Shown here: positions 4,421 through 47,410 of the stretch, piece after piece
How the letters are laid out: each line of letters opens with the position of its first letter
How positions within the stretch are numbered: the first letter of the stretch is position 1
Assembly (NCBI GenBank): GCA_021234155.1
Contig: JAJEKV010000103.1
Location: 2,850,001 to 2,914,000, forward strand
Length of the DNA: 64,000 nucleotides
From: Isoetes taiwanensis
Taxonomy: Eukaryota; Streptophyta; Lycopodiopsida; Isoetales; Isoetaceae
Reading direction: 5' to 3'
Translations under genes and position numbers: made by a program
The notes under the pieces: model-generated
Seen by the model: the letters and a program-made list of their open reading frames with translations, nothing else
Told to the model about the DNA's origin: nothing
The model's database searches: none

Positions 4421-7038
4421 ATGGCAGGTAGCAGCAATGATTCGCCAGCGCCTTCTACGGGAGAAAAAAAAAAGGTTAGTTTTAGGTTTTTTGATATCCT
4501 TTCTCTTTCTTTCGCCAAAAACTTAGTTCTTTCTTAATTTTCCTCTTGCATTTCCGGATGAAAGTCGCTACTACAAATGAGGAGTTCGCTAAGTTTTCGA
4601 GGGCTATGTAATGAGGGCAGTGGATCGAGGAGACAATAACTTGGGATGAATGCCTTCCGTAAGATTTCCCGCAGGTATGGTCGAGCTAATGAAGGAGGGA
4701 AAAATCAAACTACACAAAGCCCTACTGAGTTTGCAAAGACCGGGTTAGGGATTTGGCGTGTCGAAAGTGTACCAGCTTTGGGATCAAGAACAAGGAAGCA
4801 AGGGTTTATTTTGCAAGAGCTTTTGCATGGCGAGTAATACAAGAAAAAAGCAAGACATACCGCAAAATATTTGGTTAATCGGGCAAAGTTTGCATTTACC
4901 GTGCATGAACCAACTGGAAAATGTTTAAGTAATGTGGATGTAGTGGTCGAGACATGCTTAAAGAATATAAATGTGGGACTTGAAGCATTGCAAGATAGGG
5001 CGTGTATCGTAAACCGAATTAAAAGCATGTCTTCTAGAGTCGTTGAGCTGCACAATGAGGTATGTAGGCTTGATGGCATGATTTTTTTATGAAGATGCTT
5101 GCATGGCACTTTGTGGGATATTCAAGAGCAAAAAAGTTGCATTGAAGATTTCAGTTCTTTATTTCCGTGAAGAAGATGGAGCCCCGAATGAACTTGCAAA
5201 AGGTGGTGATGGTATGGGTTTATCTCTTTAACTATGGTAAGGAAAAAAAAAAAAAAAGCATGATAGAGAAGAGGAGTGCCTTCAGATGCATGAGTGCACA
5301 AGACCTTGAGTTGCGCTTGTCTTCTTGCCGGACAACTCAACAAAGATTTTCGTAACGCCATTTCTAACTTGAACAGACTTTGATCTAATTACCTTCACAA
5401 GTCTTTGATCAAACCATGTGCGTGTGAATGGACAGTTGTAGATGGGGAGGATGGATGCAAGGCCTCGATGCTTTCTTTTGACACACGTTTCAGTTGGTGA
5501 CATTAGATTGTGGACACTCATACCATCTACTATGCTTCCAATTGTGCTTTGAGAATTTGTGCCGATAGTATGCAAGGCAACTATACCTACAAGATTGTCG
5601 ACATTGTGTGGGATGCAGATCATATCCCCGATCCGTAAGAAGTTTCGGGGACAATGAGCGGGGATCGATTACGGTTTCAAGTGATTATGAAACTCCAACC
5701 AATGATGATAACAACATGAAAAGAAGGCCTATAACGTGAGCCATGACCAGTCCAAATTGAAAAGGTAATTGCATTTACATTAATTGAATTAGAATGTAGA
5801 AGAATGTAAATTCTTTTAATTAACATTTGTGCATTGCGGTGGAGCAAAAAGAAGAGGAAGGTCTGGCAGAGAACAAGTCGAGATTACAGTAAAAACATGT
5901 TTGTTGTTGTGTATGGATTCATGTGTAGAAGGTGTTAATTGCTTTATTGATTTTGCAGATCCAAAGATCCTAAAAAAACACCAAGAGTCCAAAGAAGGCC
6001 ACTAACACCAAGAGTCCAAAGAAGGCCACTGCACGAAATGTGAATACAATACCTGCTGATGGTCTTGCAGATGATCAGAGCAACACATTAGCTCAATACC
6101 AAAAGCAGAGTACCACAGCTGCTGCAGAAGATGGGGTTGCTAAAGTATTAGATTTTGATGATGCCATGCCCACAGACAAGTGTAAGAAAGGCAGGAAAAG
6201 CATGCCTAGGAAGTGGAAGACTCCAAATAAGGGAACTGATGGTATGAACCAATTACCATTACCATTACTAATGATATTGGTAAATTCTTGAATGCTTACT
6301 ATTCTTTTTTTTTTTTTTTTGCAGCTACACCGCCAGTTACCAAACGTGTGGAAAAGAAGACCAAAAAAAGGAAGGAGAAAGTTGGAGCTGAGGGGGAAAA
6401 TTTGGATCATCAAAACGAGCTTTTGGACGTACTTTTTGAACAAGAGCAGCAGGGTTTGCAAGCAGGGCCTGTAGCTGAGCAGCAGGGTTTGCAAACTGAG
6501 TTTGAACAAGAGCAGCAGGGTTTATTGAGCAATGAAGTTGAGGACACGCATAAACAATCAGGTCTTGGTATAGAGCATTCAAATTTTGGTGCTAGTTGTG
6601 ACTCTGGGTTTGTCAACCATGTCTGGTATCCGAGGTCTAGTTCAATACCAGTTGCTCCGGGTGTTGTTAACCTGTACAGTAGTTCCTTTGGTGCTGCAGA
6701 GGTTTGTTCAGATGCTTTTTTTGTGCATAGAGTTAATCCTATATGTAATCCACAAATAGATCAGACAAGCACAAAGGATACCTCTGCAGTTGATGAGGCT
6801 ATTGGGGGTTTGCAATGAAATACTAGGTGGTAAAGAAGTTGCTAAAGAAGGTGAGTCAGACACATGTACAACTGCTACAAATGTAGAAGAAGATCATGTT
6901 ACAAAAAAAGTGGTTCTTGCCGAGAAAGAAGCTGATGTTGGAGATGAAGAGGCAATGAAAGAAGATACAGATGTTGGAGAAAGTGAAGAAGTCGATGAAA
7001 ATGAAGATGGTGATGAGAGTGAAGATGATGTGGACTAA
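4421..7038 (+). pseudogene. element C accessory gene (acidic, Gln-rich protein), decayed
   Basis: A likely first exon begins at ATG 4421 and ends at an AAG/GTTAGT donor near 4474. Reading frames around 4646-5092 are broken by stops. A clear two-exon part follows. One exon, with a repeated KSPKKAT motif, runs from about 5959 to 6241 and ends in a GTATGA donor. A 17-base T-tract and GCAG acceptor then lead to an exon at 6325-6818. This exon encodes a basic segment (KRVEKKTKKRKEK), three EQQGLQ repeats and a C-terminus that continues, after a frameshift, into an Asp/Glu-rich tail ending near 7038. No domain is recognised. Many plant DNA transposons carry a second ORF for a DNA-binding partner, which is a possible role by context only. 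Confidence 0.45.
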
Positions 7039-7454
7039 AACACTTGGCTTAATAATACTATGTCGCAAAGAGTGAAGAAGAAGATTCTGTTAAAATAGAC
7101 CGGCGTGTTTGTTAATATTCGGTGTTAATATTTGGTGTTAATATTCGTGATGTGGATGTATTCAAGGTAGCCTTCGGTATGTATCATTTTTGGAAACTTA
7201 AGTTATTCCTACAAAGAAAAACAGTTATGTAATGATGATTTTGCAAGTTAACAAACCGTGTTAACTTCATATATATTTTAACTTATATACCAGGTGGAAG
7301 AGATGTTGAATGTTCTTACACTTTCATCGATATTGTAATTGTGCTTTTGTAATGCATTTTTGATATGAAATACAAATGTATTTTTGATATTTGTGCAAAT
7401 ACGGAACTTGATTGATTTTCCTGTGTTTTTCTTGAATTCGGCCGCCCTCCGTTT

Positions 7455-8098: not shown

Positions 8099-8455
8099 CT
8101 AAGATTTCTTGGAAGTCCTTTTAGCAACAGATTTTTTGGAAACTTCGGACATCACATTTGTTGCCGAAGTCCGCTTTTTGGACTTACTTTTAGCACCCGA
8201 TTTCTTGGCAACCGCAGACATCACATCGCCTTTCGACCAGATTCTTGGATGTCCTTTTAGCAGCCAGATTTTTGAAACCGCGGACATCACATTTGTTGCC
8301 GAAGTCGCTTTTTTGGACTTACTTTTAGCACCGATTTTGGCAACCGCAGACATCACATCACCGACGAAGAGCATTCTTGGATGTACTTTTAGCACCGTGA
8401 TTTTGGAAACCGCAGACATCACATTTGCTTCGAAGTCTCCGCCGGAGGTAAGCAA
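8099..8455 (-). pseudogene. basic repeated C-terminal tail of element C transposase
   Basis: 118 codons made of two and a half imperfect copies of a module. Each copy has TNVMSAVSKI, then a HPRM/HPRI spacer, then DVMSAVAKxxGAKSKSKK. The segment is Lys/Ser-rich and ends in AKRTSKKS before a stop. It follows the transposase core in the same orientation, so it is probably its tail or a short separate gene. Confidence 0.5.
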
Positions 8456-9262
8456 TTAATTATTTGCTCGTATGCTTCTTCGCACAACTTATACATGTTT
8501 TCCTCGCCGAACATGCCGCAATTCAACTTTGACAAGCAATAACAAGATGAGAATAGTTGCACGGTCCGGGCTTGTTTACCGTAAGTTCATATTTTTTTGT
8601 CGACCTCAACTCATAGTACTTCCCCGTAATGATGTGCTCTCTTCGCTGAATTTTGCACCCCAAACCATCTACAAAAGCCGCTTTCTACTACATGCATGGC
8701 CTCAGCAGACTTTACTAGCCAAAATCATACTTGTTTTTTGTACCGGTTCGCTAACAATGGCAAAGTTGTCACCGCTCTATGAGGCTAGCTTTCCACCATT
8801 ATCACCCTCAAACCGCACATGCTCAATTATATCTTCTCGATCCACCTCCTTTGGTTTGAGTTCGGAATAGACAAAGGCACCTCGTTCTTATCAAATTCAC
8901 ACAACTCTTACATAGACCCTTCCAAAGATGCATCACAAAAACATGAAAGTGTTTTGTGTGCCATCATAATGCACCTTTCTTTACAAAAAGGTTCCGATCA
9001 TGTGAACTTTTTTCGTCCCTTTTAAAGTGTCACAAATCATACCCGATAGACTGTCTACTTCTCCAAGTCCGATAAGCCAAAAGTTCCTACAAAATAATGC
9101 AAAATGAGAACACCTTTTGAATAGTAAAAAATGTGGTGAGAAGAAATGTGTACCTGATAGAATTATAGTCTTTCTCGCTTTCCCTTTTCACTAAAGTACC
9201 TCAGAAAAAGTACAAAGATCTTCTCGTGATTTTTAGTGGTGTGGAATTTCTTTTCAAAGATC

Positions 9263-9511
9263 TCACTTGTAAGAACTCTTTTGATCATCGCGACCGCACC
9301 ATCGTGTTTCGCCTTTTCCATGAGCCGAGGCAAAGAAGTGCCAAGTTATCTTGATGCCTCTCATCCGAAAAATACCGCCTAAATAATAAAATGCTCTTGC
9401 CGATTTGAACTGAAAGCAAAGACATCCATCCGACCGAGAGAAAACATGGTTATCAACTTCTATATTTCCAGCTTTAAGAGCATCACTATGCCTTTGCAAA
9501 CAATGCCGCAC
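9263..9511 (-). pseudogene. transposase catalytic-core segment (SDGC / HFFASAHGKGE)
   Basis: RSDGC is followed by FQFKSARAFYYLGGIF and WHFFASAHGKGE. In related transposase-like proteins these elements run as SDG..QFKS and W.(F/Y)F...HGKG(E/P). The Asp of SDG and the Glu after HGKG are candidates for catalytic acids. In another frame just upstream, NFYISDDRDHDCLF can be read, so a one-base frameshift separates the two parts. Confidence 0.6.
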
Positions 9512-10018
9512 AAATAAGCAATCATGGTCCCTATCATCGAGATGTAGAAATTTGTTTCCTTCACAATCTTCCCGTCACCAACAACCGGGTTTGCCTTCTC
9601 ACCATCTTTTGCATGTCTATATGTTATGTGCACTAGAAGCGTGCAGAATCGGTCATTTCTCCAATGGAGGGTTTGTATTTCCCGGCCAGATCTTAAAGGT
9701 ATAGTTTTCTCGCAAAATCAATGACATGTACCATTGTACCGGAGGGAATGTTTGCAAGCGGCCTTTGAACTTTTCAGCCCCGCCATCTAGCAAAGTAGTT
9801 AGTTGTGAGGAATAAACCGCTTAATAACACTCTTGGCATGCACAAAAACTCTTTGCAGAGAAGTGGATTTGTAAACTAGCTTCATAACATCCTTGGTTTT
9901 GGTCGTCCACCTTTTTAATGAAGGTCTCCCCGCACCTAAACAATGTACAAGCAAGGAAGAGCACATGTCAACCACAATCAATGGCATATATGTTGCTAAT
10001 AAAAAGTGAGTCACCTTT

Positions 10019-39513: not shown

Positions 39514-40335
39514 GAAGAGTAGGTTCCTGTGTGCTTGAATAGTTCAGCTTTTGATGTTTCTGTAGCTAAATTCGTAGCAAATCACGAAATGGGTTCCAAT
39601 TTGGCAATGACTTGAAGCTTTTTAGGCAAGATGATCGGCAAATTCTCAAGCAGAATTGCATGTAATGCTGTGTTTTGTTGGCGGAAAGCCCAAGTTGTTG
39701 TTTGTGTGGGCAGGACGTACTTCTTCAAATAAAAACATCTAATGTCTTTGTCTTTGCAGACTGCAAGAATCCGACTTTTCTTTCAATGTCTTTTCCTATT
39801 CTGCATTGAATCTGACCATTTTAGCATACACCTATATCAAATTTTTATTGTATAGTTTTCTAGGAAATATTAGGCGGCCCGTTTGTGCGAGAGCAAGTTG
39901 AGCCTGCAATTTCATGAAGCCATCACTGACGGGTCTGTGCTACATGTATCATGTCAGAAATTAAACTGGATTGTGAAGCTCCAGATAAGGTAGGCGGAAA
40001 CGTCCTCTTCATGGTGTTCCAGGGAGGCCCTGAGCATTGGATTGGAACTGGGGTTTGATTCCCCAGGCTCATGTCATGTTGGAATGTTGATGCTATGTTT
40101 GAGTTATGTAGTTCTACATTGTATTAGTATATTGTACAGGGTAGTATACTATTTTAACCCATGGTGTGTAGCCTTCTAGAGACCCTTTTTAAATGGAGTC
40201 AACGGGGGCCAGCTTGACTCCAGAAAGACTCCAGATAGGAGAACACGATGTTTGGAGATGGAATATCCTATGAATTATGCCACGATCCAAGGGCCACGAG
40301 CCCTTGAATCGCCATTCTGGGTAGGGACGAGCCAT

Positions 40336-40343
40336 TATATAAG
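40336..40343 (+). promoter_or_regulatory. TATA box upstream of the ParB/methyltransferase-like gene
   Basis: TATATAAG lies about 440 bases before the ATG at 40780. The leader between them has C/T-rich DNA and a TTGTTGTTGTGCAG acceptor at 40749-40762, so a 5' UTR intron is possible. The upstream TGTTGGAATG at about 40079 resembles an LTR start, but no second copy exists in the window. Confidence 0.4.
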
Positions 40344-40493
40344 TATACTCCATATTCGAGGCCAGTTATCGGCGTCTTCTCACAGCAGCACTTCTCTCAT
40401 TGCCCATTGCTTCTCTCCCTTCCTGCCCTGATTGCTTGGGTGCTTGTTCATTGTTTTTCACATGTGTTTCTGTTCATGCATACCTTATTATTG

Positions 40494-40677
40494 TCCACCC
40501 CGAGGGTGTTGCTATAATCATGTTTTTACACCTGCATAGTGCGGCCTTGTTCTCCACCTGTGGCTGATGCTGTTTATTTCCACCCTGAGGGAGACGCAAA
40601 TTTCCTTTTTATTATATTCTTTCTTCCACCTGTTGGGTGATGCTTTTTCTTTCCACCCTCGCCCTCCGGGTGATGCT
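40494..40677. repeat. degenerate CCACCCTGAGGGTGATGCT repeats in leader
   Basis: About five imperfect copies (CCACCCCGAGGGTGTTGCT, CCACCTGTTGGGTGATGCT and variants), spaced 20-60 bases apart. They lie between the TATA box and the start codon. Confidence 0.65.
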
Positions 40678-40779
40678 ATCTTCTCTTCTACCATGTATTA
40701 TTTGATTTTCTCCTCAATACTAATCACTCACATTAGTTTTTTGGGTGCTTGTTGTTGTGCAGCTTGCCGCTTCGCCGTC

Positions 40780-42036
40780 ATGCACGTTCTAGAAACCTCC
40801 TTCCATTGCATTGAAGGCTACAAAAGACAACAAATTGCCTTCCCGGATGGACACAAATGGTTGCGAGTAGTTGCCAAGAAAAAAACTGTGGTTCCATTGG
40901 CTGTTGTAGGTGAACCATCAACTCCAAAAGAATCCTTAGTGTCATCTCAGCCTGTCTGCCATTGTCGATCCCTCAGGTCAAAATATGCTTATGCCTCTTC
41001 CAGTCTCTACTTCATCTACTCCCACCTCGTCCACCAACCCTATAGCTACGACTTCTATGTTGACTTGACCATCTGCTTTACGTATGCCTGATGAATTAAA
41101 ATTCAATCCAGATGAAGAAAAGAAGCTTGCTGAACAGGCCGCCTCCAAACTAGAAGAATTTAAAAGATTCTATCCTATGGGAGTGAACTGGTTCCAGAAG
41201 ATCAACATTCTTGATTGTGAGACAGCCCCTGCTAATCTAACTCATAGGGTTCGATCTAACGACCATGTACAAACATTAATCAAGAGCTTCAAAAGGTGCC
41301 CAACGAAGGTTCTCACGCCTGCCGATGTCGTCCCATTTGACCCAGTGACAAGGTAAGTTTTATTGCATATTTCTTTCTATTAGGCCGACTGTTTATAATG
41401 CCTATTAATTGATGGGACATCAATGCAGGAAGTTGATCACTTGGTCCCGCCCTGAAGAGCTCTTGAACAAGAAATTTTATATTATTTCTGGTAATCACAG
41501 TATTTTTGTTGCACAAATTCCTTGTTCTATGATGGGTAATGTCGAGCAATGGCTGGAATTTGCTAAAGCTTATACAAAGCGAAGAAGCCATGTGCTAAAT
41601 GGAAATCTCTCTAATAAGGAGTATATTCAGTTATCCATGCAGTGCAATGACATTATAGCGGATACATTATATAAGGAGCCACTAATTGAAAAGCTCCAGC
41701 AATTAAGGAATCGACACAAGGCTTATGGATGCCCTCCACAAGGCCCAATAGGCACTGCAGTATCATCTGCTTGGAAGGTTAGTCTTATTTTCAGCTTAAG
41801 AAGATCGCCGTCGCGATCCTGACCAGTTGTTATTTTCAGGATTTTGCCGATGTAGCTACAACGACATTGAAGGTTAAAGAACTCAAGGATGAAAAGCAAT
41901 TCCTTTTCATGCAAGAAGAATCATGGTCCAAGCTTGTTGTTGTTGTTAACAAATGGTCAGCGCGGAAGCTGGCTGATGATCATGGGGAACTGTCAGATAG
42001 CCTTCTCTTTAACAAGACTTTTCTAAGATACCTTTG
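40780..42036 (+). pseudogene. ParB/Srx-like N-terminal part of a multi-exon gene
   Basis: Exon 1 starts at ATG 40780 (FHCIEGYKRQQIAFPDGHKW). After a frameshift near 40965 and one stop near 41073 it reads MPDELKFNPDEEKKLAEQ, then SNDHVQTLIKSFKRCP and VLTPADVVPFDPVTR. A donor (AAG/GTAAGT, 41353) and acceptor (GCAG, 41428) join exactly in frame to KLITWSRPEELL and FYIISGNHSIFVAQ. A second intron (41778-41839) again joins in frame to DFADVATTTLKVKELKD, which stops near 42036. The spacing of R, LxxSF, VLTPADVV and GNHSxxVA recalls the ParB/sulfiredoxin fold (R, L..SI, P, GxHR..A). Exact splice joins show that it was a real gene. The fold assignment is tentative. Confidence 0.5.
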
Positions 42037-42445
42037 AGGAATGAATAATGACGAGGTCAGCCAACTGATGGACAAAATTCTCGAAGGCAAAGTGTTTTTA
42101 AAAGTTCAATCCGTTTATACATGGCGCTTTGATTGCTGACAGAGGGCGCTGGACATCAGAACACTGTCACTGATGCATCGTGAAGTGTTAGTCTTGAGGA
42201 GTTAGCTACACGTTTCCCAGAGCTTTCTGAATAACGATCGCTGGATATAGTCGACACAGATTTTGATTATATTAAAGCCAACTATAATAAAAATTCAATG
42301 CAAGGCAATCTCCCCAGTGCTTTTTCGGAAGCCATTATGGCCATTATAAAGCCAGAAGAGGCAAGGAAACATAAAAGAAGAGGAACATCATGCACCATGT
42401 CACCAAGTCTGGTATTCCCGTTTCTGTGCCGGTGCGAATGCCACA

Positions 42446-43438
42446 ATGATTTTTATTGACATGCGTAGTTTCACGATGCTATGGGAAGTTAAAAAATACA
42501 CAGATTTATTTAGCAGGATTGCAGGCATGGCGAAAGCCAAAGTTTATCATATCGTCATGTTCCTCAGATCCACCCATTTGCCAAATTGCATGTATAGTCA
42601 AAGTCAGGTTCAAGGTAATTCTCATGTTTCCCTTGGGGCTTATGAAGAACAAGGCTGGGAGAGCAAGAAAAATATCAAGGAGTTTCAATATTACGCGACC
42701 CATGTCACGAAAAACAGAAGTGAGGCTCGTGTGTTGCCTGTGAAGCCGAAACTGGAGCTACGGCTGACTCAGGTGACCAATGCGCCGAAAAGCACGCCCC
42801 TTCTGAAATATCCATTAACTAGTGATGAAGAGGTGGATATAAAAACAAAGAAAAAATATTGGGAGTATTTTACAGGTAAACCCAAGTTCTCTTGGGCAGC
42901 AATGGATGGCAACTTCGTCCATAAGAGCCAGGCAAAAATATTATATATTTACAACATGGTGAAGGAGATGGCTCCACTGAATGGTTGTGTTCTTGATTTT
43001 TTCTCGGCTGGCACAGCTTCAAAAGTTGCTCTGATGCAAGGAAAACGTAGTATTTCCTTTAAATATGATGATAAGATATGTCGTTTCCTCAGATCCTTCT
43101 TTGAAACTCTAGAGAAAATGGCAAGGCCTGCCAAAGAAGAGGAAGAAGAAAATGCTATGCCCGATAAGCCAAACAGTTCAGACATGACGGACATCAAAAT
43201 AACTCAGGAGATAGATCTCAGCAAGATGGATCAAATACTGGATGCTCTGGATCAGAAAAGTTTCGGAGAGTTACAGGAAACCAGGGCACTGCTAGAAAAA
43301 ACAGAAAAGGCAACTACTGAGCTCGACCCACAGTTCAAAAAGCTGGAGGCACTGAACAAAAATTTTGAGAAGATCCTGCCAGTGATAACAGGTTCTGTAG
43401 AAAAGCCGCTTCATAATTTCGAATACATAGGAATCTGA
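42446..43438 (+). pseudogene. N6/N4-type DNA methyltransferase-like domain
   Basis: 330 open codons in line with the preceding ParB-like exons. Near residues 160-205, WAAMDGNFVHKSQAKILYIY is followed by NGCVLDFFSAGTASKVALMQ and GKRSISFKYDD. In N6/N4 DNA methyltransferases the end of the domain reads (V)HPTQKP..L, then G..VLD.F.GSGT..AA...GR..IG.E.D. The match covers the HPTQKP box and the SAM-binding FxGxG region, here FSAGT. A (D/N/S)PP(Y/W) catalytic box is not visible; the preceding 42040-42440 is frameshifted. The C-terminus is a Lys/Glu coiled-coil-like stretch (LEKMARPAKEEEEEN, ELQETRALLEKTEKATTEL). Confidence 0.5.
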
Positions 43439-43460
43439 TGACGCATCTGGAAGTGGTAGA

Positions 43461-43467
43461 CTAGAGG
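43461..43467. other. target site duplication of LINE (left)
   Basis: CTAGAGG, repeated at 45742-45748 on the far side of the LINE. The host reading frame continues across (SDDASGSGRLE before, LEGDHSPKRQK after). Confidence 0.7.
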
Positions 43468-45741
43468 AAGGAAGGAAGGTTCTTTTATCGTCCGCGGAGG
43501 CCAATCGGCCTATGGGACCCAAATTACATGGGTGCAGCAAGCCCGTTGCTACCGGATTAAAAAACCCCCCTTACGAGGGAAAAATCGTCGCAGCAACAAG
43601 CCTACTGGCAGCTGTACAAATATACATATACACATGAATTCCCGGCACCTCAGGTAGGCGCGGGGGGATAGAGGTGAGTCCGCAGATCCAAAACCTCATG
43701 GAGGTAGGAGCCAAGGGATCGAACTGGCGGCGTACTGAGTACCTCGTGCAGTGGCAGACCAGGTCGCACCAACAGGGCATAGCGAGCCCAGATCTGACTA
43801 TTGGCTGGACAGCTCTGGAAGGCATGGCTTTCATCCTCAACAACCCCTAGCGGGCAAAACTGACAAAGCCTGTCCTGGCGCAGCTCTCCAATCCACCGAC
43901 CCGTCTCAAGCCGAAGATGGTGGGCTCCTGTTCGAATGGACAGATGATCCTGCGCTTCTTCATGGGCAACTGAGAACGCAGGTAGAGATGTGGGCCTCGA
44001 ACCAGGGTGGGGTTTATGTGATGTTTGTAGTGTGCCATCTTTACCTGTTCCAGAGCATTGTAGTCTTAGAGCTTCCCCAGGAAACAAGAGTCCAAGTACC
44101 CCCTCAGCCTATCCCGGTCGGCGTCTGTGTGCACCTGGACGCACCTATGTGCCTCTACGTTCCAGCACGCCAGCCACTGGGCTCTCTTGTCCTTCCAACA
44201 AGTCCTGAGTCGTTGCGGACTCATCGCCACAGCGTAAGCCAAGTGTGGGAGCCGAGTGTCGCCCATGCTGGCCACCTTCTGGAAATAAACAATGTGTCTA
44301 TCGAGGGCCGCATGCTGCAGGGGCATGAATCCTGTCTCCTACAACAAGATCTGATATGGAACTAAGGGCTTGACCCCAAGTGCCCGCGTCAAAAATGCCT
44401 TCTGGACCTGCTCCAAATCGTTCCAAGTCGCCAAAGACACCACTGGGCCCCACACCTCGACCCCATACTGTTTAAGAACTAGCTCCACCCGCCAGTGCAG
44501 AAACAAATGTGATTGGTGGCCCCGGTCATCACAACTACGCCTGTGACTATTGTTTTGCATTGCGTGACAGCCTTCCAAACTGCGGTCACCAAGGCGAATG
44601 GATGCATCCCAATACATTGAGGGCGGAAATTCCACCCCTGTGCTACTTGTAGGCGGGTGTGACCTCTACCATCCGCCCTCGATAAGTGAGCCGGAGAGGT
44701 GCTAGATGACGGAGGAGGATATGAGGACCACCTTAGTCTTGGCGAGGGTTGACACGCATGTCCGCCGCCTCGGCAAAATGTGTCCAGGCATCTAGGTGCC
44801 CTCGCATGCCCTCGGGTGTATGGGCCAAGAGGTCCACATCATCCGCATAGATGAGCCGCCGGATGACACGTGCAAGAGTCAGATACCCCCCCCATTGGCA
44901 AAGAAGCCGGGGCTTCCAACCGGGTCGATGTAAAGTCCAAAGAGTGTGGGTGAGAGGACAACCTTGCCTAACTCCAATGTTGCCGGGCAAATGACGTTCC
45001 TTCCGCTGCATGCGCCCAGGTAACTCTCGAGATACCAGATTAATCGCTGCTCGCAGATCCACAAGGAGCCCCAAATGGTGCAATCTCGCCTACAACTTTT
45101 CTGGGGTGCACCGTGGTCGAAAGCTTTTTGCAAAGTCCACAAAAAAAGAAGACAGTCCTCCCGACGGTTCTCGCCGGCCCCCACCGTGGCCCCGGTGTGA
45201 AGATGTGATCAATGGTCGAATGCCCGGTTAGTGCCCCGATTACCGCTTCCGCCTACCGGTTATTCGCTTTCGAGAATGCCCGCCAACAAATTTTGGCAAA
45301 CACCGAAATGACCATGATGGTTCTGGTGAATTGGTCGGATAAAGGTGGATCCCCCCTTGTAGATCGGAACAACCCGCCTGTGGTCCATGATCGCTGAAAA
45401 CCTCTTGCAAATACGCTGAACAAAGGCGGCAGGGCCGGCACCATGGGCTGTCCCCGCCCACTTGAGCAGCTCCGCTTGCGGGGCCGTCTAAGTCCGGCCG
45501 CCTTCCCATTAGCCAGCGGCCGCAGCCCTCTTCGACATCTTCTTACGCGGATCACCACGGTGAGCCATGCTTGCGGGGCACCATCCGTCCGTGTTCCCGG
45601 GGGATCATAAAGCTGTTGCGTGTATCGCTCCCATTGTCCGCCGTGATGTGCCCCAGAGGGTCGTGGCCGGGCCTTTGGAGTACTCTCTACGTTTAAAGTT
45701 CTCGGGTGGGTGTCTAGTAGGCCGAACATTTCTCCTTGGTG
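43468..45741 (-). mobile_element. 5'-truncated LINE inserted in the methyltransferase-like gene
   Basis: On minus the order is RPLANGKAAGLRR and PALPPLFSVF, then RTIMVISVFAKI (45253-45729). GVRQGCPL with a YADDVDLLAHTPEG active site follows (44733-45083), then LFLHWRVELVLKQYGVEVWG (44339-44635). The last part is a zinc-binding tail, RLCQFCPLGVVEDESHAFQSC (43650-44087). RT is in several frames, so it is inactive. The 3' end on minus finishes in a TTCC microsatellite (43468-43480), and 7-bp CTAGAGG duplications flank the insert. The related copy at 50340-50990 shares the 3' end (GGCCTATGGGACCCAA). The clade is not determined. Confidence 0.8.
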
Positions 45742-45972
45742 CTAGAGGGCGACCATTCACCAAAGAGACAGAAGTTGGTTTGCTCTACAGAATACTCTAT
45801 GGCATTGGAGGATGGATTGTTGGATAGTTCTCAGGTGTCAGGGCGTGTGCAAGAGATAGCTGACGCAATGGATGTGGATATGTCGGATACTACAAGATAT
45901 ACAGAGATGGACACATCACAGACGATTGCCGCAGGAAAGGAGCATGTTAGAAGAATAGCTGCGGAGCGTTGA
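45742..45972 (+). pseudogene. C-terminal tail of the ParB/methyltransferase-like gene
   Basis: After the right duplication the frame reads LEGDHSPKRQKLVCSTEYSM and MDVDMSDTTRYTEMD, ending HVRRIAAER and TGA. It contains a basic PKRQK patch that could be a nuclear localisation signal. The frame is consistent with the pre-insertion SDDASGSGRLE stretch, so it belongs to the interrupted gene. Confidence 0.55.
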
Positions 45973-47410
45973 TGTAGAGTCTGTGAAAGAAACTCAGTGA
46001 AAATATCAATCCATAATTACCTTTTTTGTAATTATACTTCTTTGAAAATACATGTTTTATGATGTGTGCCTACTTCACATGAATATGTTTGTCTCAAAGA
46101 TCGCGACTGCGATTATTCTGACAAGATTTCTCTATTTTATAGATTAATATTAGGTAATTGCAAGCATTAAACTCTTTATATTTTGCCTTGCTTTCTTGTC
46201 CAAACTATCGCCATGGCGATCTTTGGGAGCACTAGTGATGCTTTTGGAACCCCTGACACCTAGAGGCTATAGGTGTACAGGAGATTTTCGGCGATTCTAA
46301 ATTTTTCAGGCTGATTTACTAATTATTAACACTTCATTTTGGTTGCATGCAATCATTTTTTAGTTTGCCTGAGATGACCGCGACCTATTCGTTGTCAAAT
46401 GAGAAAATGAAATTTCTCTAATTAATGAAATCTTGCTTTGTAGCTGCAAATCAACCAATAATAAATAAAAATGGAAGCAAGATTCTTTTGCGGAAATAAA
46501 GTCTTCCACGTGTATTTGTCAGCAAGAGCATATCCTGTAAAAGCATATTTTTGTCGCCCAAATCACCTTGAGATTTAAGTATGAGAACGTGCAGCTACAT
46601 TATTTGTAATGGCAGATCTCCCTACCATAGAAAGGTACTTACTATTAATTTTTTAACTTTTTCTTTATAGGAGACAGAATGAAAGACCAGAGGCCTTTAA
46701 GACTGGATTTAATGGATAAAGATATGCCAAGCAAGTTTGTAGCTTCATTATGATGCCTTTACCGTCTAATGTCCCTTCCCTCCACAGCCCATTCATGAGG
46801 GCAACCCATCGTGCGACAGCACCCTTTTTTTTTAGATAATGATATTAATGGGATTCAGGTCGGATATAATCAGATGCGATCATATGGAAAATCCAATAAG
46901 AAGTTAATTATTTCTAATGCTCTGTTGGGTTGTTCAAAGCAAATGAAATTTTATTTGTTATAAATCATGTATTATGCTAAAGGTGCATGCTAAAATTTGT
47001 TATCATGTTAAAAGTTACTATTTAGTGTTGAATGGTTATATATGCACAACCCTAATAATAGCACTACTTATGTAATGATTGTAGTAAATTCAAAACATTA
47101 AACCTCAAAAGATCTTTATAAGTTGAATTTTTTACCAAGTACCAAAAACTTTTCAAATCGGATATGAAAGATCAGCAGGTCACAAATGCTCAATTCCAAA
47201 TATTTTATTCTATTTAGCATTCTTAAACAATGATTAGTTTTCCTAATGGAAAGAAAATATATTGGTCAAAATGAAACCTAATAAAGCCCCGGGGAGATAG
47301 TTTTCCTCCAGAATACTATATGAAACTCTAGGATATTCATAAGGCAGACTCTCCTGGTCAGCTATAGAATTTCATCTTGCTTTTTCATCTGGCATGATCT
47401 CTTTGTAGGA
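45973..47410. other. AT-rich DNA, no gene seen
   Basis: Includes a small hairpin (TAATTAC/GTAATTA around a T-run, about 46014-46034) shortly after the methyltransferase-like gene stop, and AATAAATAAAA near 46460 as a possible polyadenylation signal. Nothing else is recognised. Confidence 0.4.

Follow-up and report, generated by a model that had tools for sequence, protein, structure and literature searches.

A decayed transposon accessory gene of Isoetes taiwanensis, its putative ParB-methyltransferase descent, and class-specific palindromes as its candidate targets

Anatomy of the window copy and of its transposon

A spliced gene of Isoetes taiwanensis raises the question of how domains of prokaryotic type came to reside in a vascular plant genome and what they might do there. 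An earlier note had read this gene as a fusion of a ParB/Srx-like domain and an N6/N4 DNA methyltransferase-like domain. Our analysis of the window, i.e., the whole 64-kb stretch of DNA containing it, partly supports that interpretation: the gene belongs to a cut-and-paste DNA transposon, being a dead copy of its accessory gene. The copy spans positions 40791-46438, slightly past the end previously given for it (45972), and has a LINE inside. Because homology to other copies starts only at 40791, we regard it as 5' truncated; a plus-strand remnant of the first exon (40791-41002), detected by blastn to the copies L021-L023, covers the N-terminal region of the class termed B below, and the 5' part and the neighboring DUF7869 gene are missing (no match within the 64-kb window). 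All further exons and introns also lie on the plus strand. The two halves of the ParB-like region occupy an exon at 41069-41352, recognized by its reading frame and by relatives with a matching exon arrangement, and another at 41429-41777, recognized likewise and containing an IISGNHS box. The two GT-AG introns predicted earlier are confirmed at 41353-41428 (GT at 41353, AG at 41428), where relatives separate the flanking exons in the same way, and at 41778-41839 (GT at 41778, AG at 41839), on the basis of splice signals and the alignment of relatives; the exon arrangement recurs in related copies. Alignment of class B copies revealed a palindrome, GATCGCCGTCGCGATC, inside the latter, last intron (41803-41818, no strand).

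The first part of the last exon (41840-43438), delimited by frames, relatives, and profile searches, comprises a linker, decayed by frameshifts and stops at about 42037-42350, and the methyltransferase-like domain. Its open segment (42350-43438; 362 aa) includes three motifs located by alignment, namely, FIDMR (42452-42466), which stands in place of a DPPY-type catalytic motif IV; the motif X-like FVHKSQAK (42914-42937); and VLDFFSAGT, the DFFSAGT of which (42995-43015) is a motif I-like SAM-binding loop. Modeled by itself with AlphaFold, the window ORF gave an unusable structure (pLDDT 36). Homology to other copies ends near 43465 and restarts at 45742, and this gap, together with a minus-strand reverse transcriptase (RT) frame with a YADD-type reading within 44733-45089, marks a minus-strand LINE insertion (43466-45741, ends approximate) that divides the last exon, as had been proposed. 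Beyond it, homology to other copies defines the C-terminal part of the exon (45742-45972), a motif scan located two strandless class B palindromic sites (46099-46114, one mismatch to GATCGCNNNNGCGATC, and 46206-46221, also one mismatch), and comparison of copies revealed the conserved right terminus of the transposon (46383-46438, plus strand), ending in ...CTTGCTT.

The mobile-element connection and the better-preserved relatives that had been anticipated are both borne out, the latter as copies with open frames. The genome yielded at least 113 scored copies, and in some of them the last exon keeps a frame of 600+ codons. The class B element is a DNA transposon of approximately 10 kb (10.1-10.4 kb in fully read copies) with imperfect inverted repeats of 20+ bp (AAGCATG[AG]TTTCATTAATT...). 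A 4-bp target duplication flanks 15 of the 17 copies examined and a 5-bp one flanks one more, against none of 272 mismatched control pairs; these end pairs span about 5.4 to 11.1 kb and comprise 14 short pairs, two full copies, and C1041, with 16 of the 17 picked from partial lists, the other readable pairs of which (C72, C979, C1019, and C1007 at 18.05 Mb) are outside this set. Genome-wide, the right-end sequence has 231 matches (≤2 mismatches) and the left-end sequence 585 (≤3 mismatches), with none for the reversed-pattern control of either. Sola1 transposons generate 4-bp target duplications, and the class B duplication fits that of the Sola superfamily. Such duplications are also described for Sola2 transposons (PMC3627910). 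A retrotransposon origin was rejected, since the integrase-like fragment downstream in L017 and L021 begins where the similarity among copies ceases and is therefore outside the element; copy number, element ends, and target duplications likewise rule out a host or domesticated gene.

The same genome carries the accessory gene in two transposon classes, A and B, with the window copy belonging to B. A DUF7869 gene lies near the accessory gene in all four class B loci read over 10 kb (three divergent, one in the other orientation), and among the best 150 + 150 listed places of class A, 24 DUF7869/PF01555 pairs lie no more than 20 kb apart, 22 of them divergent, with 0.54 expected. The DUF7869 gene, which presumably encodes the transposase, occupies the left side of the element and the accessory gene its right side, usually in divergent orientation; the name DUF7869 was not met in the literature searched. 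The DUF7869 proteins of the class A loci L031 and L032 are 95% identical; that of L031 and that of class B locus L024 share 51% identity over 67 aa and 23-24% elsewhere. Inverted repeats are also present in L031 (936-969/9004-9037), the single class A element checked for target duplications, and a clear 4-bp one was not found there.

The methyltransferase-like and ParB-like parts in the two classes

By its sequence, the class A protein is a genuine N6/N4 methyltransferase, matching PF01555 in Pfam at 2.3e-18, a PHROG methyltransferase at 1.2e-19, and the CcrM structure at 2.6e-8. Beta-class amino DNA methyltransferases have the motif order IV - X - I, and the class A motifs are, with small variants, DLPY (DIPY in L029), a variant of the [DNS]PP[YFW]-type catalytic motif IV; HYQKP; and DAFSGSGTT. 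The gene joins this part to a ParB-like one: among 150 + 150 listed places, 44 pairs of ParB and methyltransferase exons lie on the same strand at an offset of 1.6-2.4 kb and none lies on opposite strands.

For class B, a distant relationship to methyltransferases is supported, if weakly in direct tests, in line with the earlier methyltransferase claim; active methylation by this protein is not supported. The window class matches PF01555 with an E value of 0.002, under the Pfam cut-off; profile-profile comparison with class A (hhalign) returned a P value of 2.5e-4 and a probability of 43%; and a search of solved structures with the class B profile found no methyltransferase. These three observations are what one might expect if the class B domain were unrelated to methyltransferases and its motifs matched by chance. 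We nevertheless consider this improbable, because PF01555 is the family that most class B members match (9 of 13 at E ≤ 1) and because motifs IV, X, I, and II succeed one another as in the beta class and match up with their class A equivalents: F[IV]D[MI]R, K[SGC]Q[AL]K, and DFFS[AG]GT follow in the order IV - X - I, and the profile alignment places ADLPYG opposite IDMR and brings the motif I sequences of the two classes together. In all 13 open copies aligned, the domain is 222 codons long and motif IV reads D-[MI]-R with invariant D and R; none of them has a [DNS]PP[YFW]-type motif. The dN/dS ratio is 0.05-0.18 in 33 of the 36 calculable pairs (42 of the 78 pairs have saturated dS and yield no ratio) and 0.35-0.50 in three close pairs (window-L009, L024-L043, and L037-L035), the set including the window row, itself a decayed gene. 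Given that the catalytic motif IV is gone and yet the domain is under purifying selection, class B apparently encodes a selected pseudo-methyltransferase, most likely a pseudo-enzyme that binds SAM or plays a structural part.

Such conservation, alongside an apparently catalytic relative elsewhere in the genome, would also suit a non-catalytic subunit that partners class A in trans, as in heterodimeric methyltransferases. This is highly improbable, since, among the listed places, A and B genes do not occur together (a single pair lies within 60 kb, against 1.2 expected) and the palindromes of the two classes differ completely. An element combining both classes was not found among the listed places.

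The ParB claim fares differently in the two classes. A ParB-like identity is plausible for the class A part, which matches a ParB-like PHROG (E value of 0.024) and DUF6551 (E value of 0.012). The corresponding region of class B retrieved no profile match (two members in Pfam to an E value of 5 and one in PHROGs); its position, the GNHS box, and a faint match to class A over this part (hhalign P value of 0.0046, probability of 8%) constitute weak evidence of ParB ancestry. ParB_N (PF02195) retrieved nothing over the cut-off in a genome search.

Horizontal capture is likely to lie at the origin of the gene, since domains of prokaryotic type carry introns here, as the earlier note had suspected. 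In tblastn searches against phages, the class A last exon matched 953 records, all weakly and below 60% identity, and the class B last exon matched none; pattern scans of IMG/VR (viral) and GTDB (prokaryotic) contigs with the class A last exon confirmed no relative.

Class-specific palindromes and their predicted role

We found that each class has its own palindrome. That of class A, GTGTATTCCGGAATACAC, occurs at 2585 exact sites in the genome and that of class B, GATCGCGGCCGCGATC, at 364, with none for either control. The former is present in both class A 10-kb loci, at a pitch of 41-42 bp, and in none of the six class B sequences; the latter is present in all six class B sequences and in neither class A locus. 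These two class A and six class B sequences thus have lineage-specific palindromic cis sites, as expected of a ParB-parS type of system. In class B the palindromes frequently depart from the exact sequence, and in class A a good one is lacking from two of the eight loci, each read over 3-4 kb (L026 has none and L025 one with 3 mismatches). The window has three sites (≤2 mismatches), only modestly above chance in that 2 of 100 shuffles reach three. Other palindrome shuffles, including those for the comparison of the two class A and six class B sequences, were simple base shuffles. Of the first 50 sites listed for each class, a non-random sample compared with part of the listed features, 20 in class B and 19 in class A are near elements; three of the latter adjoin one hand-added DUF7869 place (16 without it).

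The sites are placed largely in noncoding DNA: 10 of the 11 in L031 are outside exon frames, with exon bounds drawn by hand from reading frames, and 32 of the 33 mapped in class B are outside protein matches. The last-intron site recurs in all 21 aligned class B copies, with exact arms in 12, one change in 6, and more in 3; the alignment comprises 21 of 30 copies, the other nine (L004, L007, L008, L010, L014, L015, L019, L039, and L043) having been dropped with exon ends unmatched on both sides. A splice branch point after the site could account for part of this intron conservation, and column conservation of the sites is biased because they were picked by the motif.

On the basis of the specificity, phasing, and placement of the sites, we infer that the proteins of both classes most likely bind, via their ParB-like half, the palindromes in noncoding parts of their own element. 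One competing possibility is that the DUF7869 transposase, and not the ParB-like protein, uses the palindromes for binding or synapsis. In its favor, DUF7869 proteins, like the palindromes, differ widely between classes A and B, but the sites lie mid-element and in accessory-gene introns, away from the termini, and C534, an internally deleted derivative that keeps only one palindrome, has a target duplication; we judge this possibility quite unlikely. The same derivative suggests that the palindrome array may be dispensable for mobility, and it does not support a cis requirement for the palindromes. Another is autoregulation, in which the accessory gene would encode a KorB-like repressor and the palindromes would serve it as operators, in the divergent promoters and in introns, to regulate copy number instead of countering silencing. 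One class A cluster, between the divergent genes (4856-4939 in L031 and 5973-6015 in L032), and the class B sites upstream of the accessory gene (9007-9264 in C1041) speak for it. Such a model has no need of the further class A arrays deep in the accessory-gene intron (6881-7134 in L031) or of the single class B sites in the 3' part (46099 and 46206 in the window), and we regard it as unlikely.

Own-palindrome binding would amount to recognition of the element in cis, after which the class A protein would methylate and/or coat its own element and the class B protein would coat it without methylation. Descent from a fusion of a ParB-like domain with a beta-class N6A/N4C DNA methyltransferase is supported for class A, which keeps the canonical form, and weakly for class B. 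The purpose is likely to be that the element withstands host silencing, remaining transcribed and mobile, and/or that its divergent promoters are set, with the palindromes as predicted parS-like binding sites in a VANC-like form of anti-silencing. We hold the explanation as a whole, i.e., a dead accessory-gene copy of ParB-methyltransferase descent, own-palindrome recognition, and a class B pseudo-enzyme, to be somewhat more probable than its negation. A broader proposition, to which we give rather less than an even chance, is that DNA transposons of land plants harbor a eukaryotic means of self-recognition akin to ParB-parS, in which the protein loads on helically phased arrays and shields the element from silencing, with one lineage also writing N6A/N4C and the other being a selected pseudo-enzyme with a wholly changed tag.

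Relationship to known systems and biological meaning

The closest precedent is the accessory protein of Sola1-1_Ec32, a DNA transposon of Ectocarpus, which combines ParB-like and N4C/N6A methyltransferase domains, is encoded on the strand opposite the transposase, and has already been proposed to bind and modify its own element; the same source cites comparable transposon proteins from green and red algae (Iyer 2011; Petroll 2025) (PMC12477816). The Isoetes class A gene resembles it in joining both parts, in being borne by a DNA transposon, and in lying opposite the DUF7869 gene. The Isoetes elements differ in their vascular plant host, their high copy number, their two lineages, one without motif IV, and their class-specific palindromes, none being mentioned for Sola1-1_Ec32 in the available text of that source (PMC12477816). 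Fusions of ParB and N6_N4 methyltransferases described in phages and conjugative elements (PMC12704722) share both domain types with the Isoetes protein but are prokaryotic. In mode of action, the predicted system resembles bacterial ParB-parS, which likewise pairs a ParB-like domain with palindromes in cis close to the gene encoding it; unlike the bacterial one, it lacks a match to the ParB_N profile, and its sites form phased arrays inside a transposon. VANC, the anti-silencing protein of Arabidopsis VANDAL transposons, recognizes short, often tandem-repeated motifs of its own family, which lie in accessory-gene introns and upstream of the transposase and differ among related families (PMC5735166). 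The Isoetes sites are class-specific and similarly located, a likeness in the way of working. VANC has other domains, DUF1985 and DUF287, and the motif YAGTATTAY (PMC5735166) in place of a long palindrome.

ParB-methyltransferase transposon proteins have thus been reported from algae; new here are their occurrence in a vascular plant, which widens the range of the family, and the class-specific palindromes, of which we found no report in the literature for such proteins. Plants have lost the AMT1 pathway, and claims of 6mA in them are disputed (PMC12695648). There is now a concrete candidate target for an enigmatic accessory protein that eukaryotic transposons carry, one combining ParB with a bacterial-type methyltransferase, and this opens to direct testing the published idea that proteins of this kind bind and mark the element encoding them. 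Since the two lineages differ in their DNA tags and one of them has naturally lost the catalytic motif, they would make DNA binding separable from methylation. If the anti-silencing role is true, the Isoetes system would be an independent counterpart of Arabidopsis VANC.

A decayed copy of a DNA transposon

The window gene is a decayed copy of a transposon accessory gene that extends from 40791, the point where similarity to other copies sets in, to ~46438, which is a conserved transposon terminus. The exons, introns, and motifs described from the window sequence are all present as the earlier note stated. Similarity to other copies is absent from ~43465 to 45742, where a LINE on the minus strand interrupts the gene; this insertion (43466-45741) sits in the last exon and has a YADD-type reverse transcriptase reading frame, also on the minus strand. 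DUF7869, the presumed transposase of the family, has no match in the 64-kb window. Upstream of the truncated copy (40000-40790) lies unrelated sequence with a TATATAAG box, possibly another inserted element.

The relatives predicted elsewhere in the genome were recovered. A search of 1,658,258,908 bases in 1110 contigs with a 362-codon window segment yielded at least 113 scored copies (the 3525 first-look candidates being a rough number), and the domain is open in 13 that were aligned. Four loci with a LEAFY domain point to a genome of the land-plant lineage or of close relatives of it. The element of this family, here termed class B, is a DNA transposon. The right end is sharp and common to the copies: a 30-base sequence taken from it has 231 genome matches with ≤2 mismatches, against 0 for the reversed control. 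The left end is an imperfect inverted version of the right one, and its 32-base pattern gave 585 matches with ≤3 mismatches (control, 0). The 4-bp target duplication is perfect in 15 of the 17 copies for which both ends were examined and is replaced by a 5-bp duplication in one more; among 272 mismatched end pairs, none matched at 4 bp. Three copies followed from end to end measure ~10.1 to 10.4 kb. The left side carries the DUF7869 gene (PF25273; E 2.7e-32 in the class B locus L024), whose product we infer to be the transposase; of the four loci read initially, three have it divergent from the accessory gene, and L022 has it the other way round. On one contig, class B right ends occur three times on the same strand at intervals of ~7 kb (G000 C996:11128044, 11135040, and 11142053), suggesting tandem amplification of an element or a fragment. 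In L021, also class B, a frame just past the shared part of the element (8447-8824) is similar to a Ty3/gypsy integrase C terminus (Pfam SH3_Tf2-1; E 0.048).

Canonical class A genes and the divergent class B domain

The same genome also encodes many canonical relatives (class A) combining ParB-like and N6/N4 methyltransferase domains. PF01555 scores over the cut-off in all of the 150 best listed places, out of 1444 first-look candidates in the genome profile search. Among 150 + 150 listed places, 44 pairs have a ParB-like exon (HYVLGGNHSFKA...LTDEEAKIVAN) 1.6 to 2.4 kb upstream of a methyltransferase exon with both on the same strand, and no pair has the two on opposite strands. Class A proteins possess the motifs ADLPYG (ADIPYG in L029, TDLPYG in L028), NHYQKP, and DAFSGSGTT, and against solved structures their last exon matches CcrM, MboIIA, and RsrI (best E 2.6e-8). 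Among those listed, 24 class A genes are ≤20 kb from a listed DUF7869 match (0.54 expected), 22 of them divergent. In the class A locus L031, 34-bp imperfect inverted repeats (TTCTCATATAACA...; 936-969 and 9004-9037), with a 4-bp duplication that is not clear, are probably the termini of an element of ~8.1 kb. No Pfam match covers the C-terminal portion of the DUF7869 protein (ITEITKGMPIALPTEEDDKGRPFWTAK...; L031 1307-2104, minus strand; L032, likewise class A, 8534-9667, plus strand); our impression is that this portion may be an extra chromatin-reader-type module.

The methyltransferase-like domain proposed for the window gene stands in part: most class B members have PF01555 as a match (9 of 13 at E ≤ 1, the best being 0.002), but all of these fall short of the family cut-off. 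Profile comparison of the methyltransferase parts of the two classes gave P 2.5e-4 and a probability of 43%, with class B IDMR aligned to class A ADLPYG; class B is probably a distant relative of class A. The expected ParB profile match was not found: the class B members tried retrieved none in Pfam or PHROGs, ParB_N had no place over the cut-off genome-wide, and between the two classes the ParB-like regions matched each other only at P 0.0046, with a probability of 8%.

All 13 class B copies with an open domain, whose identity to the window copy falls as low as 52%, have a domain of 222 codons, with motif IV as F-[IV]-D-[MI]-R (D and R invariant) and motif I kept as DFFS[AG]GT. Of the 36 pairs for which dN/dS could be calculated, 33 have a ratio of 0.05 to 0.18 and three, all close pairs, one of 0.35 to 0.50; dS is saturated in another 42 pairs. 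Where the PPY-type motif is lost, amino-methyl transfer is predicted to be lost with it. Since this motif is gone while selection on the domain continues, the class B domain looks like a preserved pseudo-methyltransferase.

ParB-methyltransferase transposon proteins are already known from algae. Searches of an open-access collection, the red-algal paper not included, yielded no account of vascular-plant members, of a branch without motif IV, or of arrayed palindromes in these transposons.

Class-specific palindromes

Each class carries its own palindrome, a candidate protein-binding site. That of class A, GTGTATTCCGGAATACAC, often extended to AAAGTGTATTCCGGAATACACTTT, has 2585 exact genome sites (reversed control, 0) and, at ≤3 mismatches, 11 and 9 sites in two elements. 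Nineteen of 50 sites are ≤8 kb from a listed class A feature against ~0.2 expected, both from partial lists. The sites form arrays with a pitch of 41 to 42 bp (about four helical turns): of the 22 neighbor distances <400 bp among those listed, 10 are 41 to 42, 6 are 83 to 85, and 1 is 124, the remaining five being 25, 101, 117, 159, and 191. In L031, 10 of 11 sites are outside exon frames. One array there (4856, 4898, and 4939) lies between the divergent genes, where the first main rival reading, autoregulation of divergent promoters, would place it; an accessory-gene intron holds another (6881-7134). Arrays occupy the corresponding places in L032.

The class B palindrome, GATCGCGGCCGCGATC, has 364 exact genome sites (control, 0) and, at ≤3 mismatches, 2 to 9 sites in each of six sequences. 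On partial lists, 20 of 50 sites have a listed class B feature ≤12 kb away, where 0.17 would be expected. They occur upstream of the accessory gene, within introns, and in the 3' part, and 32 of 33 do not overlap any match to proteins of the element; the single exception is in a stop-to-stop frame that served as its own query. In the last intron, the site is at the same place in all 21 copies aligned (of 30), with arms ATCGC/GCGAT that are exact in 12, changed once in 6, and more altered in 3, around a variable center. In the window, the intron site persists at 41803-41818, and two further sites remain in the 3' part, at 46099 and 46206. None of the six class B sequences contains the class A motif, and neither of the two class A loci contains that of class B.

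Proposed role of the accessory protein

The combination of a predicted ParB-like DNA-binding protein with lineage-specific palindromes in the noncoding stretches of its own element suggests self-recognition in cis. The second main rival is that the palindromes are bound by the transposase. An internally deleted copy has a single palindrome site yet shows a target duplication, which weakens the need for full arrays in movement, unless the deletion came after insertion.

The nearest working analogue of this proposed quillwort system is VANC of the Arabidopsis VANDAL transposons. The motifs that VANC targets vary from one family to another and are often tandemly repeated, in accessory-gene introns and upstream of the transposase (PMC5735166). 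On the basis of this analogy and the self-recognition layout, we favor an anti-silencing or element-marking role for the accessory protein, which would be exerted with putative methylation in class A and without methylation in class B.
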